The notes under the pieces were generated by a model that made no database searches, was not told the origin of the DNA, and was given only the letters and a program-made list of their open reading frames with translations. The translations under genes were made by a program, and so were the position numbers. A stretch of DNA of 64,000 nt from Candidatus Nitrosotenuis chungbukensis. GTDB taxonomy: Archaea > Thermoproteota > Nitrososphaeria > Nitrososphaerales > Nitrosopumilaceae. The stretch lies in contig NZ_AVSQ01000017.1 of NCBI RefSeq assembly GCF_000685395.1, forward strand, positions 62,001-126,000, given 5' to 3'. Below are positions 42,112-52,798 of this stretch, piece after piece. The first letter of the stretch is position 1, and the number at the start of each line of letters is the position of its first letter.

Positions 42112-42225
42112 TTATCCTGCGGATTTAGTTTTTTGCATTTTTAAACAGGATTTGCAGAGGATCTTCCCTTTTTCGATTACCAATTCCACGTTTGAGGTAA
42201 GGCAGACATGACACAGTCCTCGCAT
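42112..42225 (-). CDS. 37-residue zinc-ribbon-like microprotein
   Basis: ATG at 42225 starts a frame with two CxxC pairs, CHVC and CKSC, 15 residues apart. A TATA-like GATTTATGC is centred 26 bases upstream (about 42251), so a leaderless mRNA is expected. The gene lies directly before the PfkB kinase gene. It probably folds around one zinc ion. Its size and motif resemble other microproteins in this window, and the function is unknown. Confidence 0.6.
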   Translation of the reverse strand: MRGLCHVCLTSNVELVIEKGKILCKSCLKMQKTKSAG

Positions 42226-46450: not shown

Positions 46451-48337
46451 CTAGACCATTATCTGTGGTCGTTTTGTCATGTATCTTGACAGATTTAGTC
46501 TTGTAAACGGTTTTTCCTTTGTTTGTTCTCTGATATCTGCAACAAAATCGTCAAACGGTATCTCTGTAACGTTACCCGAAATCCTGTCTCGGACGGAAAG
46601 ATTTGGCTGATTTACTTCTTTTTCCCCAATCACAAGGCTGTACCTTATCCATTCGGTTTCTGATTCGCGTACTCTTTTTCCAATGGTTTCGTTTCGGTCG
46701 TCAATATCTACTCGAATGTCTTGCTTAGTCAACCTGTCTGCAAGGGCCTCACAGTGTTGTAGAAATTCTTCCTTTAGTGGAATGATTCGCACCTGTGTCG
46801 GGGCAAGCCACAGTGGGAGACTTGCCTTTCTGCCCTCTTTTTGATCTAATGCCGCCTTTTCAAGAAGGACATAGATTACTCGCTCAATGGCACCGCTTGG
46901 CGAATTGTGCAGGATTATCGGATGGTGTGGGACGTTGTTTTCGTCAAAATATTTGATTCCGTATCGCATACCGTTTTCAACATCGATTTGATCAGTAGAC
47001 AGTGCAGACGCCTTTCCAAGACTGTCAACATAATTGAATTCCCATTTCAATACAAAATAAAAGAATCTCTCCTTCCACATTTCGACAAGTACTGGCTTGC
47101 CAAGCTTTTTGACGAGATTGTGAATTACCGACTTGTGTTCGTTGTAGAATTCCTCTGTAAATCGAATTGCCATCTCATAGTCAGATTCGTTTATTCCGAC
47201 TTGTTTGAGGACATTTCGAGACAGTTCAAATCGTTTTGTCATCTCTTCTACTGCCTGCGGTATGTCGGTGCAAAACGCATGGCAATCAGGCATCGTAAAT
47301 GCCCGTAATCGTCGCAGACCAACAAGCTCGCCTGACTGCTCTCGCCTAAAGCTGTATCTTGTAAGCTCGTACAGTTTTAGAGGCATGTTGCGATAAGATA
47401 TTTGGAAATCATTTGCCATGAGGAATTGCCCAAAACACGCCGCAAATCGCAAGAACAGCTGCTTTCCTTCGGTATTGATGTTGTACTGTCGTGCGGGAAA
47501 TCGGTTAAAGTAACTCTCCATGCTTGGATGGTGTGAGTCATACATGATTGGGGTTTCTACCTCAAGGCCACCATACTCTTTTACTTGATCATTTACGAAT
47601 CGCTCAAGAAGTGATTTGATAAGTCTGCCATTTGGATAAAATCGCATGTTGCCAGAATCAGATGCGGGTTCGTAGTCTGCAATTGCCATTTTTTTCATTA
47701 GCTTTACATGTGGTGGGGGTTCGTCGACTGCTCTCTTCTTTGCAGATTCGTACTTGGATAATATTTCTAATTTTTCATGTTTTGCAAAATTAAACTTGCC
47801 AACTTCGTGCATTTCCCCCTCTGGTGTCATGATGTACCAAAAGGACTGGATTTTTGACTCGGACTTGAGCGCATCAGACGTATGGCCCTCATCGTGCGTG
47901 TGGCCTTCGTGGGAATGCATTTCCCCCACAGATTCGTTGACGATGGTCTTTGAGCTTTCTGCCAACGGGTGTCCCTTTACCTTGACGTTGTAAGATTTGG
48001 TCCATCCAAATGGGGCATGCGACACATCATAGCCCACTGCAAGGGATTCCATTTCTTTTAGCAGGCTTAGTGCCAGACTCGGGGATGCAAGGTTTGAGCT
48101 TAGGTGCGCGTATGGATATAGCAGTAATTTCTTACATCCGACCTTGTCCATTGAGGCAGTTATTTCCACAATTGCCTTTTTTGCAGTCTGGGAATCATCT
48201 CCTTGCTCCATCGCAACAAAGGCAACTACCACTTCGTCTAGTTTTTTTGATTCTGGAACGATATCCTCGGCGGACTTGATTTCCTTTTTTGTCGGGGTAA
48301 ATTCTATACTGTCACAGTGTAATTGGAGTATGCGCAC
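46451..48337 (-). CDS. thrS: Threonyl-tRNA synthetase, archaeal type
   Basis: This class II synthetase of about 628 residues has an archaeal N-terminal editing-like domain, then the catalytic core and a C-terminal anticodon-binding domain (PTQVRIIPLKEEF). The start is taken as a GTG at 48337 (MRILQLHCDSIEF), because archaeal ThrRS begin this way and a TATA-like stretch lies about 28 bases upstream. An ATG at 48349 would add four residues. A His-rich linker (HSHEGHTHDEGHTSD, about 145-159) is unusual. Confidence 0.94.
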   Translation of the reverse strand: MRILQLHCDSIEFTPTKKEIKSAEDIVPESKKLDEVVVAFVAMEQGDDSQTAKKAIVEITASMDKVGCKKLLLYPYAHLSSNLASPSLALSLLKEMESLAVGYDVSHAPFGWTKSYNVKVKGHPLAESSKTIVNESVGEMHSHEGHTHDEGHTSDALKSESKIQSFWYIMTPEGEMHEVGKFNFAKHEKLEILSKYESAKKRAVDEPPPHVKLMKKMAIADYEPASDSGNMRFYPNGRLIKSLLERFVNDQVKEYGGLEVETPIMYDSHHPSMESYFNRFPARQYNINTEGKQLFLRFAACFGQFLMANDFQISYRNMPLKLYELTRYSFRREQSGELVGLRRLRAFTMPDCHAFCTDIPQAVEEMTKRFELSRNVLKQVGINESDYEMAIRFTEEFYNEHKSVIHNLVKKLGKPVLVEMWKERFFYFVLKWEFNYVDSLGKASALSTDQIDVENGMRYGIKYFDENNVPHHPIILHNSPSGAIERVIYVLLEKAALDQKEGRKASLPLWLAPTQVRIIPLKEEFLQHCEALADRLTKQDIRVDIDDRNETIGKRVRESETEWIRYSLVIGEKEVNQPNLSVRDRISGNVTEIPFDDFVADIREQTKEKPFTRLNLSRYMTKRPQIMV

Positions 48338-48471
48338 AAATTCAAACAAACGGCATTATTGAATTAAATGTTTTGTGAAATTATCGCAGATCAACAGAAC
48401 GGATCGGAAATATCTGAGATTTCGCCATATTTTTTGCTAAAAGGCTTTTGGATGCGGATGTTTTATGAGTT

Positions 48472-49934: not shown

Positions 49935-50281
49935 TCGTTGCCAAAGGACTTTTGCCTGATGATGCCACCTAGGTAGTCAGGATTCAAATTTATGGTCTTG
50001 AATAGGCGGTGCTACTTGTCGATACCCAAATCATCATACAGAACGTTAGCCTTTACAAACAAAATCAAGTCCAAAGTTTAGTAAATTCACTAAATAATTT
50101 TGGGCACCTTTTCAATATCCTTAGGAGTTTTTCTTGGAATATTCTTCAAGCGTGTCTTTTTCCATGACCAAATAGGTCGCTGAGCTATTTAAAATGTGAA
50201 AACTTTGTCGTGCTTGGGTCGTGACAAGTTAGCAGAACATGGTTAAATTAATTTTATAAGCGATGAACGCATATTGGTTCC
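49935..50281. other. Gene-poor stretch with a possible tiny leaderless ORF
   Basis: No normal-sized gene is seen. It contains a 6+6 inverted repeat (TTTAGT, 50077-50082; ACTAAA, 50089-50094). A minus-strand TATA-like box at about 50187-50195 is correctly spaced for a 14-codon ORF. The right end holds the TATA box (50253-50259) of the microprotein gene at 50282. A short non-coding RNA is an alternative reading. Confidence 0.35.
50121..50165 (-). CDS. Possible 14-residue leaderless peptide ORF
   Basis: ATG at 50165 follows a TATA-like TTTAAATAG by 26 bases and encodes MEKDTLEEYSKKNS before TAA. The length is extreme and the peptide is not recognisable. The promoter could instead drive a non-coding transcript. 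Confidence 0.2.
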   Translation of the reverse strand: MEKDTLEEYSKKNS

Positions 50282-50380
50282 ATGAGTTTTCGAAAATGCA
50301 TCCATTGCGGCAGGGAATATGAAAATATATTCAATAAACGAGTCTGCTCAATACAATGTGCACTCGAAATTACCAATTAG
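50282..50380 (+). CDS. 32-residue zinc-finger microprotein
   Basis: ATG at 50282 begins MSFRKCIHCGREYEN. The cysteines CIHC and CSIQC, about 12 residues apart, could bind one zinc ion, as in rubredoxin-knuckle or small ribbon motifs. The TATA-like attttataag (50251-50260) is 25 bases upstream. It is the first of four microprotein genes in the same direction, each with its own promoter. Confidence 0.6.
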   Translation: MSFRKCIHCGREYENIFNKRVCSIQCALEITN

Positions 50381-50485
50381 CCTCCTAATCGCTTAAAAGA
50401 CACGTGCCCTGTTTTGAGCCGTTTGAAAACCCCCTTATCGACCTTTCAGAAATAATAATAACACCAAGTTTTCAACCAATAGGAA

Positions 50486-50650
50486 ATGGGCTTGTTCAAA
50501 AAAAAGACAGATGCAAATGAAACAAAGTGCAAAAATTGTGGACTAGAACTGCCCGACCCAGAACGTCTAAAAAGACACATGAAAAAAGCACACGGAAACT
50601 TACCCGTTAAGAAAATGGATCCAAACAACAGCGAAGGAAGCCTCTGGTAA
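50486..50650 (+). CDS. 54-residue C2H2-finger microprotein
   Basis: ATG at 50486 encodes a basic peptide with one clear C2H2 finger: CKNC-x12-HMKKAH. A charged tail follows. An AT-rich aataataata stretch at 50451-50460 is about 29 bases upstream. The motif is like the fingers of the protein at 10821, so nucleic-acid binding is plausible. Confidence 0.7.
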   Translation: MGLFKKKTDANETKCKNCGLELPDPERLKRHMKKAHGNLPVKKMDPNNSEGSLW

Positions 50651-50693
50651 AGATCAAACCTGACTTATATGTACGTGAAAATCCGGATCAGAC

Positions 50694-50792
50694 ATGCTAA
50701 GTAAGATAATTGCAAAACTGAAGTCTTGTTCTTGTAGCAAGAAATCGCCTGACGACGCAAGCACACTCGAATCTGAGAAGAAATCAGATTAA
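50694..50792 (+). CDS. 32-residue Cys-containing microprotein
   Basis: ATG at 50694 encodes MLSKIIAKLKSCSCSKKSPDD and an acidic tail. Two cysteines (CSC) are the only notable residues; the N-terminus is an amphipathic helix. The TATA-like cttatatg (50664-50671) is centred 27 bases upstream. It could bind metal as a dimer or be a regulatory peptide. The coding status is supported mainly by promoter spacing. Confidence 0.4.
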   Translation: MLSKIIAKLKSCSCSKKSPDDASTLESEKKSD

Positions 50793-50895
50793 AACAAAGA
50801 ATCAAAGGATGTTAGATTCTAAAACGCTCTTTTTACACTTAGTTGTCGCCTAAACTCATAATTTCTTAATATACTTGGTTTGACCTATGATGAGC

Positions 50896-51006
50896 ATGAA
50901 GTACTGTCATGATTGTTTAACTCCGATTAGCCGCAATTCGTCAGATGAATACTGCGCTTTCTGTAAAAGAGATAGAGCGATTAAAAAAAACAGCTCTGTT
51001 GCCTAG
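50896..51006 (+). CDS. 36-residue zinc-ribbon microprotein
   Basis: The product MKYCHDCLTPISRN... has two knuckles, CHDC and CAFC, 13 residues apart, and a basic C-terminus (KRDRAIKK), the pattern of a small zinc ribbon. ATG at 50896 fits the TATA-like cttaatata (50865-50873); ATG at 50887 would add three residues. It is the fourth member of the cluster. Confidence 0.65.
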   Translation: MKYCHDCLTPISRNSSDEYCAFCKRDRAIKKNSSVA

Positions 51007-51060
51007 ATCATATTTTCAACATAAATTAGAAAAACAAAAACAGGCCAAGATAAAGCGGCT

Positions 51061-51273
51061 CTAAAACCTGCTAAATCTCGCTCGTTCGATATCTCGGTCT
51101 TCTTTAGTTTCCTTTTTCCATTCTTTATAGTGCTCTTTGCAAAGTACGGTGTGTTTTCCAGAAGACGCTACTCGCAATCCTGCGCTTTCTACTTTTGAGG
51201 TGTTAATTGAGCGAGCTCCGTCGTTGCTACAGCCATCAACATTACATTTTGCTCCTTTTGAAACAATTCCCAT
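51061..51273 (-). CDS. 70-residue zinc-binding protein
   Basis: The product has CNVDGC near the N-terminus and CKEHYKEW further on, which together could form a C-C-C-H zinc site. The C-terminal tail is highly charged. A strong TATA-like CTATAAATATC at about 51295-51305 is 26 bases before ATG 51273. It faces the microprotein cluster and is convergent with it. The role is unknown; nucleic-acid or ribosome association is possible. Confidence 0.7.
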   Translation of the reverse strand: MGIVSKGAKCNVDGCSNDGARSINTSKVESAGLRVASSGKHTVLCKEHYKEWKKETKEDRDIERARFSRF

Positions 51274-51401
51274 ACTGGTATGCCCAATTAATGATATTTA
51301 TAGTTGAAACCGATTTTGAGGCAAACCTTACCTTGAATTGCCGCACGGTTATCTTTCACAATACTAGCAAATCCCCATGTTTGTTCATAGTAAACTAACT
51401 A

Positions 51402-52307
51402 TTGGATAAAATTACGAATTTTATTAAAAATTTATTGAAAACAGCTAGACGTGCACAGATAATCTGCGATGACGGCGTATCAGACATTGCAAATACTGAC
51501 ATCATAAAACTGCAAAAAGACAATACTCTTCAAGATATCATATCTTGCCTTTCAATGAACAAGATAAGCAAGATTTTCATTTACGATGATGCAAAACCGG
51601 TCGGAGTAGTTACAGACAAAGACATCATAAGATTTTTGTACATTGATAAAAGTGGCAGAAACCTGAATCAAATTCTTGCCACCGAATTGATGAACAACAT
51701 CTGCTTTGTGAATAAAGGACTAACATGTCAACAGGCTGCCCAGCTCATGCTTCTCAACAAGATAGGCACCCTCGGAGTTGGGAGTAAAGAAAATCTAGCA
51801 GGCATAATAACAAAGTCAGACCTCATAAAATACTACATAACAAGGCAGCATGACACTAGCAAAGTGTCAGATTATATGACAATTAGTTATTTTTCGGCTG
51901 GAATAAACGACAGGGTGTACGAACTGATTAAAAAGATGATAGCTTTTGACATATCGCGTGTAGTGATAACAGATGATGATAAAAAACCGGTCGGAATGAT
52001 TACAGCTGGAGACCTGTTCAATTTGACAATAGAGACAAACAAGCTAAGCATAGTGCAGTCAAGCATTGCCAATTATTTAGAAAAGGATGGATTGTGGTCA
52101 GAGACTGGCTTTGTCGGCTCCCAAATTGCAGGAGAAATAATGACTCCCGGAATAATCACAACAGGTCCGTCTGTTGACATGGTGGATGCGGCAAAGGTAA
52201 TCTTGGAAAAAAGAATAGACAGTCTTGGGATAAGCGATGAAAGTAATACGCTGCTTGGAATTATCAGCAAGAGAAACATACTGCTTGCACTGGCAAAAGA
52301 CACGTGA
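51402..52307 (+). CDS. Protein with four CBS domains
   Basis: The 301-residue protein consists of two CBS pairs. Repeated units are seen: KISKIFIYDDAKPVGVVTDKDI, KIGTLGVGSKENLAGIITKSDL, DISRVVITDDDKKPVGMITAGDL and RIDSLGISDESNTLLGIISKRNI. CBS pairs bind adenine nucleotides or SAM and often control partner enzymes. No catalytic domain is attached. It lies between the microprotein cluster and RR3. It starts with TTG. Confidence 0.85.
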   Translation: MDKITNFIKNLLKTARRAQIICDDGVSDIANTDIIKLQKDNTLQDIISCLSMNKISKIFIYDDAKPVGVVTDKDIIRFLYIDKSGRNLNQILATELMNNICFVNKGLTCQQAAQLMLLNKIGTLGVGSKENLAGIITKSDLIKYYITRQHDTSKVSDYMTISYFSAGINDRVYELIKKMIAFDISRVVITDDDKKPVGMITAGDLFNLTIETNKLSIVQSSIANYLEKDGLWSETGFVGSQIAGEIMTPGIITTGPSVDMVDAAKVILEKRIDSLGISDESNTLLGIISKRNILLALAKDT

Positions 52308-52358
52308 TTTGCAGGCGCATTATAAAATAGCAATCAAGGAACCAGATTTACGACCTTT

Positions 52359-52377
52359 TGTTTGTTTCAAACACACT
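52359..52377 (+). promoter_or_regulatory. Palindromic signalling box upstream of RR3
   Basis: The sequence TGTTTGTTTCAAACACACT matches 16 of 18 non-central positions of the palindrome and keeps one arm perfect. It is centred 47 bases before the RR3 ATG (52415). Unlike the other three sites it is on the plus strand, but the arrangement relative to the gene is the same. Confidence 0.65.
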
Positions 52378-52414
52378 AGTGCATAATTCCGCTTATTAGT
52401 GAAAATCCATAGTA

Positions 52415-52798
52415 ATGAGCGAAGAAGATGACGAGCCCATCATAATGATAGTAGACGATGCGTCATTTATGAGAAAAGCATTAAGAAAAATAATTGAATC
52501 CGCAAGAATCACCACCAAAATTATTGAGGCTGCAGATGGGATAGAGGCAGTGATGAAATACAAAGAGTATCGACCGTATCTGGTGACCATGGACGTGTTG
52601 ATGCCAAAGGCAGACGGGATACAAGCGTTGCGCGCCATAAAGAAAATAGACCCAGACGCCAAAGTAATCATGGTTTCGTCAAGTGCAAAGAACCACATAG
52701 TTCAGGATGCAATGAAGCTTGGCGCGTTAGACTATGTCTTAAAACCATTTGACAGCGCAAGAATGAACGTGATCCTTAGCAGACATGCGAGAGTTTAA
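52415..52798 (+). CDS. CheY-like response regulator (RR3)
   Basis: The 127-residue receiver domain has acidic residues in MIVDDASFMRKALR, phospho-acceptor Asp60 (VTMDVLMP) and lysine in VLKPFD. The DDA-F-R-LR start is typical of CheY, so a link to taxis is possible, but no che or archaellum operon is adjacent. It is a single-domain regulator. The signalling box at 52359-52377 suggests common control with RR1, RR2 and the kinase at 48472. Confidence 0.9.
   Translation: MSEEDDEPIIMIVDDASFMRKALRKIIESARITTKIIEAADGIEAVMKYKEYRPYLVTMDVLMPKADGIQALRAIKKIDPDAKVIMVSSSAKNHIVQDAMKLGALDYVLKPFDSARMNVILSRHARV

Follow-up and report, generated by a model that had tools for sequence, protein, structure and literature searches.

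Do the very short ORFs packed into about a kilobase of the Candidatus Nitrosotenuis chungbukensis genome represent genuine genes, and do those genes belong together? The window, that is the whole stretch of DNA analysed (C17:62001-126000, 64,000 nt of a 1.76 Mb genome), carries four plus-strand ORFs, here called p1 to p4, and a minus-strand ORF, p5, at the coordinates and with the cysteine/histidine patterns originally predicted. These ORFs and the neighbouring genes to which the text refers are the following.

46451..48349, minus strand: threonyl-tRNA synthetase (ThrRS), with the Pfam domains tRNA-Thr_ED, tRNA-synt_2b and HGTP_anticodon
49512-49934, minus strand: 140-residue protein with no Pfam match
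50282..50380, plus strand: p1, 32 aa, predicted zinc-finger micro-protein, C-x2-CG...C-x3-C
50486..50650, plus strand: p2, 54 aa, predicted classical C2H2 zinc finger, C-x2-C-x12-H-x4-H
50694..50792, plus strand: p3, 32 aa peptide ORF, CSC motif not conserved
50896..51006, plus strand: p4, 36 aa, predicted zinc ribbon, C-x2-C...C-x2-C, starting at the third ATG
51061..51273, minus strand: p5, 70 aa, predicted treble-clef-like zinc protein, C-x4-C...C-x2-H, facing p1-p4
51402-52798, beside p5: CBS-domain protein, then a single receiver-domain protein

A further small ORF of 37 aa with two C-x2-C pairs (MRGLCHVCLTSNVELVIEKGKILCKSCLKMQKTKSAG) lies on the minus strand at 42115-42225 of the window. 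No Rfam family was found in the window.

The 1.05 kb region holds three plus-strand ORFs of 30-75 aa with a two-pair Cys/His pattern; among 1000 dinucleotide shuffles of the same region, 979 contained no zinc-pattern ORF and 21 contained one. A search for the same peptides in related genomes recovered orthologues of p1-p5, and selection was assessed on codon alignments with these relatives by means of dN/dS and the excess of changes at third codon positions. As the original prediction had it, p1, p2, p4 and p5 are real protein-coding genes, and they are under strong purifying selection: dN/dS is at most about 0.1, third-position changes dominate, and the predicted zinc ligands are invariant in all aligned relatives. 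For p1, dN/dS is 0.016-0.055 (third-position excess, P=2e-5), and C6, C9, C22 and C26 as well as H8 are unchanged in 25 sequences. The corresponding values for p2, present in 75 of 121 relatives, are 0.025-0.10 (P=4e-6), with C15, C18, H31 and H36 unchanged in 28 sequences and a conserved tail ending in G-x-L/M/T-W. In p4 (dN/dS at most 0.07, P=2e-5) all four cysteines are invariant in 9 sequences, and in p5 (dN/dS at most 0.08, P=1e-11) the ligands C10, C15, C45 and H48 are invariant in 47 members spanning the phylum. Neither p1 nor p2 had a match in the phage collection.

The start of p4 required separate consideration, as its first in-frame ATG is at 50887. Both upstream ATGs are not conserved in relatives, whose p4 orthologues begin with MKYC or, in one case, with VKYC from a GTG. 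The 36-codon form starting at the third ATG (50896) is the right one, as proposed earlier, because the orthologues begin there and the first ATG lies too near the TATA box.

The weak member of the group is p3. Its frame is open in five genomes (the host and four relatives), which retain the stretch IIAKLKSCS, and every indel has a length divisible by three. On the other side, dN/dS is 0.4-0.5 against the relatives G007, G008 and G006 (0.12 against the near-identical G009) and third-position changes show no significant excess (P=0.15). The second cysteine of the CSC motif is replaced by Tyr in G007 (SCSY) and by Arg in G006 (SCSR), so that p3, which had been grouped with the zinc-protein genes, is not to be counted as a zinc protein. 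Judged by its sequence, p3 probably encodes a short peptide that has no conserved metal site.

No TATA motif emerged from an expectation-maximisation promoter model that had been trained on long ORFs of the window, probably because the start codons of the training ORFs are unreliable. This model was dropped, and the promoter boxes were instead defined by comparison of orthologues, which gave the elements below (distances are from the start codon).

50253..50259, plus strand: TATA box of p1 (TTTATAA), -29 to -23
50452..50461, plus strand: TATA-like box of p2 (ATAATAATAA), -34 to -25, less canonical here
50664..50671, plus strand: TATA box of p3 (CTTATATG), -30 to -23
50866..50873, plus strand: TATA box of p4 (TTAATATA), -30 to -23
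51295..51302, minus strand: TATA box of p5 (TATAAATA), -29 to -22
51030..51040, minus strand: T-rich, terminator-like stretch after p5, two T5 runs 21-31 nt past the stop codon

Each ORF does have a TATA-like box of its own, about 23-34 bases upstream of the start, and the distance is conserved in orthologues, with the box at about -30 to -23. The p1 box keeps its spacing in G009, G007 and G008 and also in G016, where p1 sits at another locus, and 17 p1 upstream regions are 100% A/T at -28 to -25. Orthologues of p2 have TTTATAA-type boxes at -31 to -25, and their upstream regions (n=29) are 97-100% A/T at -30 to -26. The p3 promoter sequence CTGACTTATAT is identical in five genomes, and the p4 promoter block CATAATTTCTTAATATACTTGGTTT is nearly unaltered in six; the p4 box also recurs at the same spacing at loci L068 and L069, where p4 sits elsewhere. 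Positions -28 to -23 are 100% A/T both in nine p4 upstream regions and in 85 distinct p5 upstream regions. Across orthologues the upstream DNA diverges while the A/T block keeps a fixed distance to the start codon. This conserved distance leaves room for a very short leader at most, which makes leaderless transcripts the natural reading; the prediction of leaderless transcription is well supported for p1, p2, p4 and p5. A leaderless archaeal unit would have its TATA box some 25-30 nt ahead of the start codon and begin transcription at that codon, and the position of the boxes agrees with this. Leaderless transcripts are common in archaea (review PMC7531240), and the comparison yields a set of promoters of the leaderless type. 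T-runs occur after p3 as well as after p5, consistent with separate transcription.

The grouping of p1-p4 is a recent, lineage-specific juxtaposition and no functional module. All four genes occur together only in the host genome (G000), G009, G007 and G008; G006, where the contig breaks off, has p2-p4. Even among these genomes the spacing varies, with 1.6 kb between p1 and p2 in G008 and a deoxyhypusine synthase gene between p4 and p5 in G007 and G006. In other genomes p1, p2 and p4 lie at scattered, unrelated places, and many p2 orthologues adjoin a HIT-family gene (named from its sequence, without a profile search). The gene order in G012, G013 and G002 is simply CBS, p5, 140-residue protein and ThrRS; together with the scattered positions of p1, p2 and p4, this bare order makes the plus-strand genes look inserted into an older p5-to-ThrRS stretch. 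The functional cluster that had been proposed is thus not borne out, as p1-p4 co-occur only in a few close relatives. Nor does the suggested link to a signalling region hold: p5 is tied to ThrRS and not to the CBS gene, and the CBS and response-regulator genes, which accompany p5 in just a part of the genus (nine loci), are incidental neighbours. As a separate observation, other Nitrosopumilaceae genera often carry several copies of p2-like C2H2 genes (L031-L060), up to five per genome.

The most important gene of the five is p5, which is ancient. The family was found in 110 of 121 relatives, and a profile search across the phylum Thermoproteota recovered it from 238 of 398 genomes, nearly always with one match per genome. 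We selected 44 distant p5 loci from 29 taxonomic families solely for holding p5. At 36 of these 44 loci outside the Nitrosopumilaceae, representing 22 families, ThrRS lies directly downstream of p5 on the same strand and within 300 bp. Within the Nitrosopumilaceae, p5 usually has ThrRS on its own strand at a distance of 1-5 kb downstream, S25e is commonly found just upstream of p5, and deoxyhypusine synthase is often nearby. Gene order can persist without shared function. Many genomes without p5 have a full-length, normal ThrRS, and no p5-like ORF was seen next to ThrRS at the 16 loci of p5-less genomes that were examined; p5 is therefore not an obligate part of ThrRS, nor an essential subunit everywhere. 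A pairing of p5 with the fused, editing-domain form of ThrRS was also considered and was rejected, since many p5-less genomes carry the full-length enzyme. Two side observations concern the genes around p5. In most of the Nitrosopumilaceae loci examined, the gene for the 140-residue protein separates p5 from ThrRS and shares their strand. Deoxyhypusine synthase adjoins p5 in most Nitrosopumilaceae loci, and the host genome has two adjacent genes for it (L306 and L307; G000:C2:130114-132133), away from p5.

None of 47 diverse p5 members reached a curated Pfam or NCBIfam cut-off; below threshold, the Pfam matches were to TtuA_LIM_N (best 0.0027) and THAP (best 0.006). A profile search against solved structures in the PDB gave nothing significant (E >= 0.3), and neither did a Foldseek structural search with the p5 model, whose sole zinc-finger match was SAP30 (2kdp; TM 0.44, E=4.7). 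The fold is predicted with moderate confidence (pLDDT 70, pTM 0.49) as strand, helix, strand and long helix, with Cys45 and His48 where the long helix begins, the arrangement of treble clefs. The protein has a net charge of +5, and its C-terminal helix is long and basic. We found no description of p5, or of a ThrRS-linked zinc protein, in a literature search of incomplete coverage.

Taken together, these data are probably best explained by five independently promoted small genes, of which p1, p2, p4 and p5 would encode one-finger zinc proteins and p3 a short peptide, with p5 linked to translation. From the TATA box of each gene, transcription would begin on the start codon or only a few bases away from it, and the conserved spacing suggests that all five mRNAs are leaderless. 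Each of p1, p2, p4 and p5 is expected to bind zinc through a single finger. The first three are most likely adaptors or small nucleic-acid-binding regulators, by analogy with haloarchaeal micro-proteins, and p5 is most likely a housekeeping, translation-linked protein that would bind RNA (tRNA or the ribosome) or ThrRS. More tentatively, the translation apparatus of much of the Thermoproteota may include p5 as a component not described before, in the form of a treble-clef zinc protein that works with ThrRS, tRNA or the ribosome; its small size of 70 residues and the lack of a matching family model would explain why it was overlooked.

Other readings of the locus deserve to be weighed against this one. 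It is very improbable that the short ORFs of the plus strand are open by chance or left over as remnants: p1, p2 and p4 combine dN/dS of 0.1 or less with third-position P values of 2e-5 or less and full invariance of the ligands, and shuffling the sequence hardly ever produced a zinc-pattern ORF. The points in favour of such a reading concern p3 only, namely the P value of 0.15, the dN/dS of 0.4-0.5 against three relatives and the loss of the second cysteine in two, and even for p3 the frame, the start and the TATA box are conserved in five genomes. A functional module, in which p1-p5 form a co-regulated zinc-protein or signalling cluster that works with the CBS protein and the response regulator next to them, would suit the tight packing of the genes, their individual TATA boxes and the nine loci of the genus at which the CBS, response-regulator and p5 genes stand together. 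We nevertheless regard it as improbable, given that p1-p4 are united in just four or five close relatives, that elsewhere p2 is often beside the HIT-family gene and p1 and p4 are at unrelated places, and that p5 occurs phylum-wide without CBS nearby.

A closer competitor concerns p5 itself, which could be a DNA-binding transcription regulator, for instance of the ThrRS gene, and not a translation component. The basic, treble-clef-like character of p5 with its charge of +5, its place as the first gene before ThrRS across most of the phylum and the faint similarity of 20 of the 47 members to THAP-type fingers, which stays below threshold, would all agree with such a role. It appears unlikely, however, as the Nitrosopumilaceae p5 is strongly conserved although it stands apart from ThrRS, and the THAP scores fall well short of the family cut-off and might be obtained with any treble clef. 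For the locus as a whole we retain the reading of five independently promoted genes with a translation-linked p5. Four ORFs spotted by eye prove to be real genes for predicted zinc-finger proteins, and one of them, p5, represents an unnamed 70-residue family of much of the phylum that is tied to ThrRS and whose role is directly testable.

Among known systems, the TtuA LIM-like N-terminus, THAP and the SAP30 zinc finger are possible distant kin of p5, with a last pair C-x2-H at the start of a helix. In contrast to these, p5 is free-standing and located next to ThrRS, and no match to them is significant. The spacing of p2, C-x2-C-x12-H-x4-H, falls within the C2H2 pattern C-x2-4-C-x12-H-x3-5-H and is that of a single classical finger. 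Among classical C2H2 fingers of archaea, the AFV1p06 family is the nearest parallel; the study of that family reported no homologue of it in Thaumarchaeota (PMC3541406). The match of p2 to Pfam zf-C2H2 (E=4e-4, 21.1 bits) is below the curated cut-off of 25.2. Unlike the AFV1p06 family, p2 is chromosomal, occurs throughout the Nitrosopumilaceae and has its own conserved tail.

The closest parallels to p1 and p4 are the haloarchaeal C(P)XCG micro-proteins (for example HVO_0758, HVO_2753 and Brz of Halobacterium; PMC11241148, PMC10716476, PMC2253796), which likewise are archaeal, single-domain proteins; they have two Cys pairs in fewer than 70 aa, and each has a gene of its own. They differ in that p1 and p4 belong to another phylum and share no common family model with them; moreover, p1 has C-x3-C as its second pair, and Gly is absent from both pairs of p4. 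The definition of C(P)XCG-like proteins, fewer than 70 aa with two Cys pairs, allows P or G to be absent and the spacing to be three residues (PMC11241148), and both p1 (CIHCG, CSIQC) and p4 (CHDC, CAFC) fall within it. Several C(P)XCG-like proteins are zinc-free (PMC11241148), and the motif alone is therefore no proof of zinc binding. For the haloarchaeal micro-proteins, phenotypes were reported in 12 of 16 deletions (PMC6562870).
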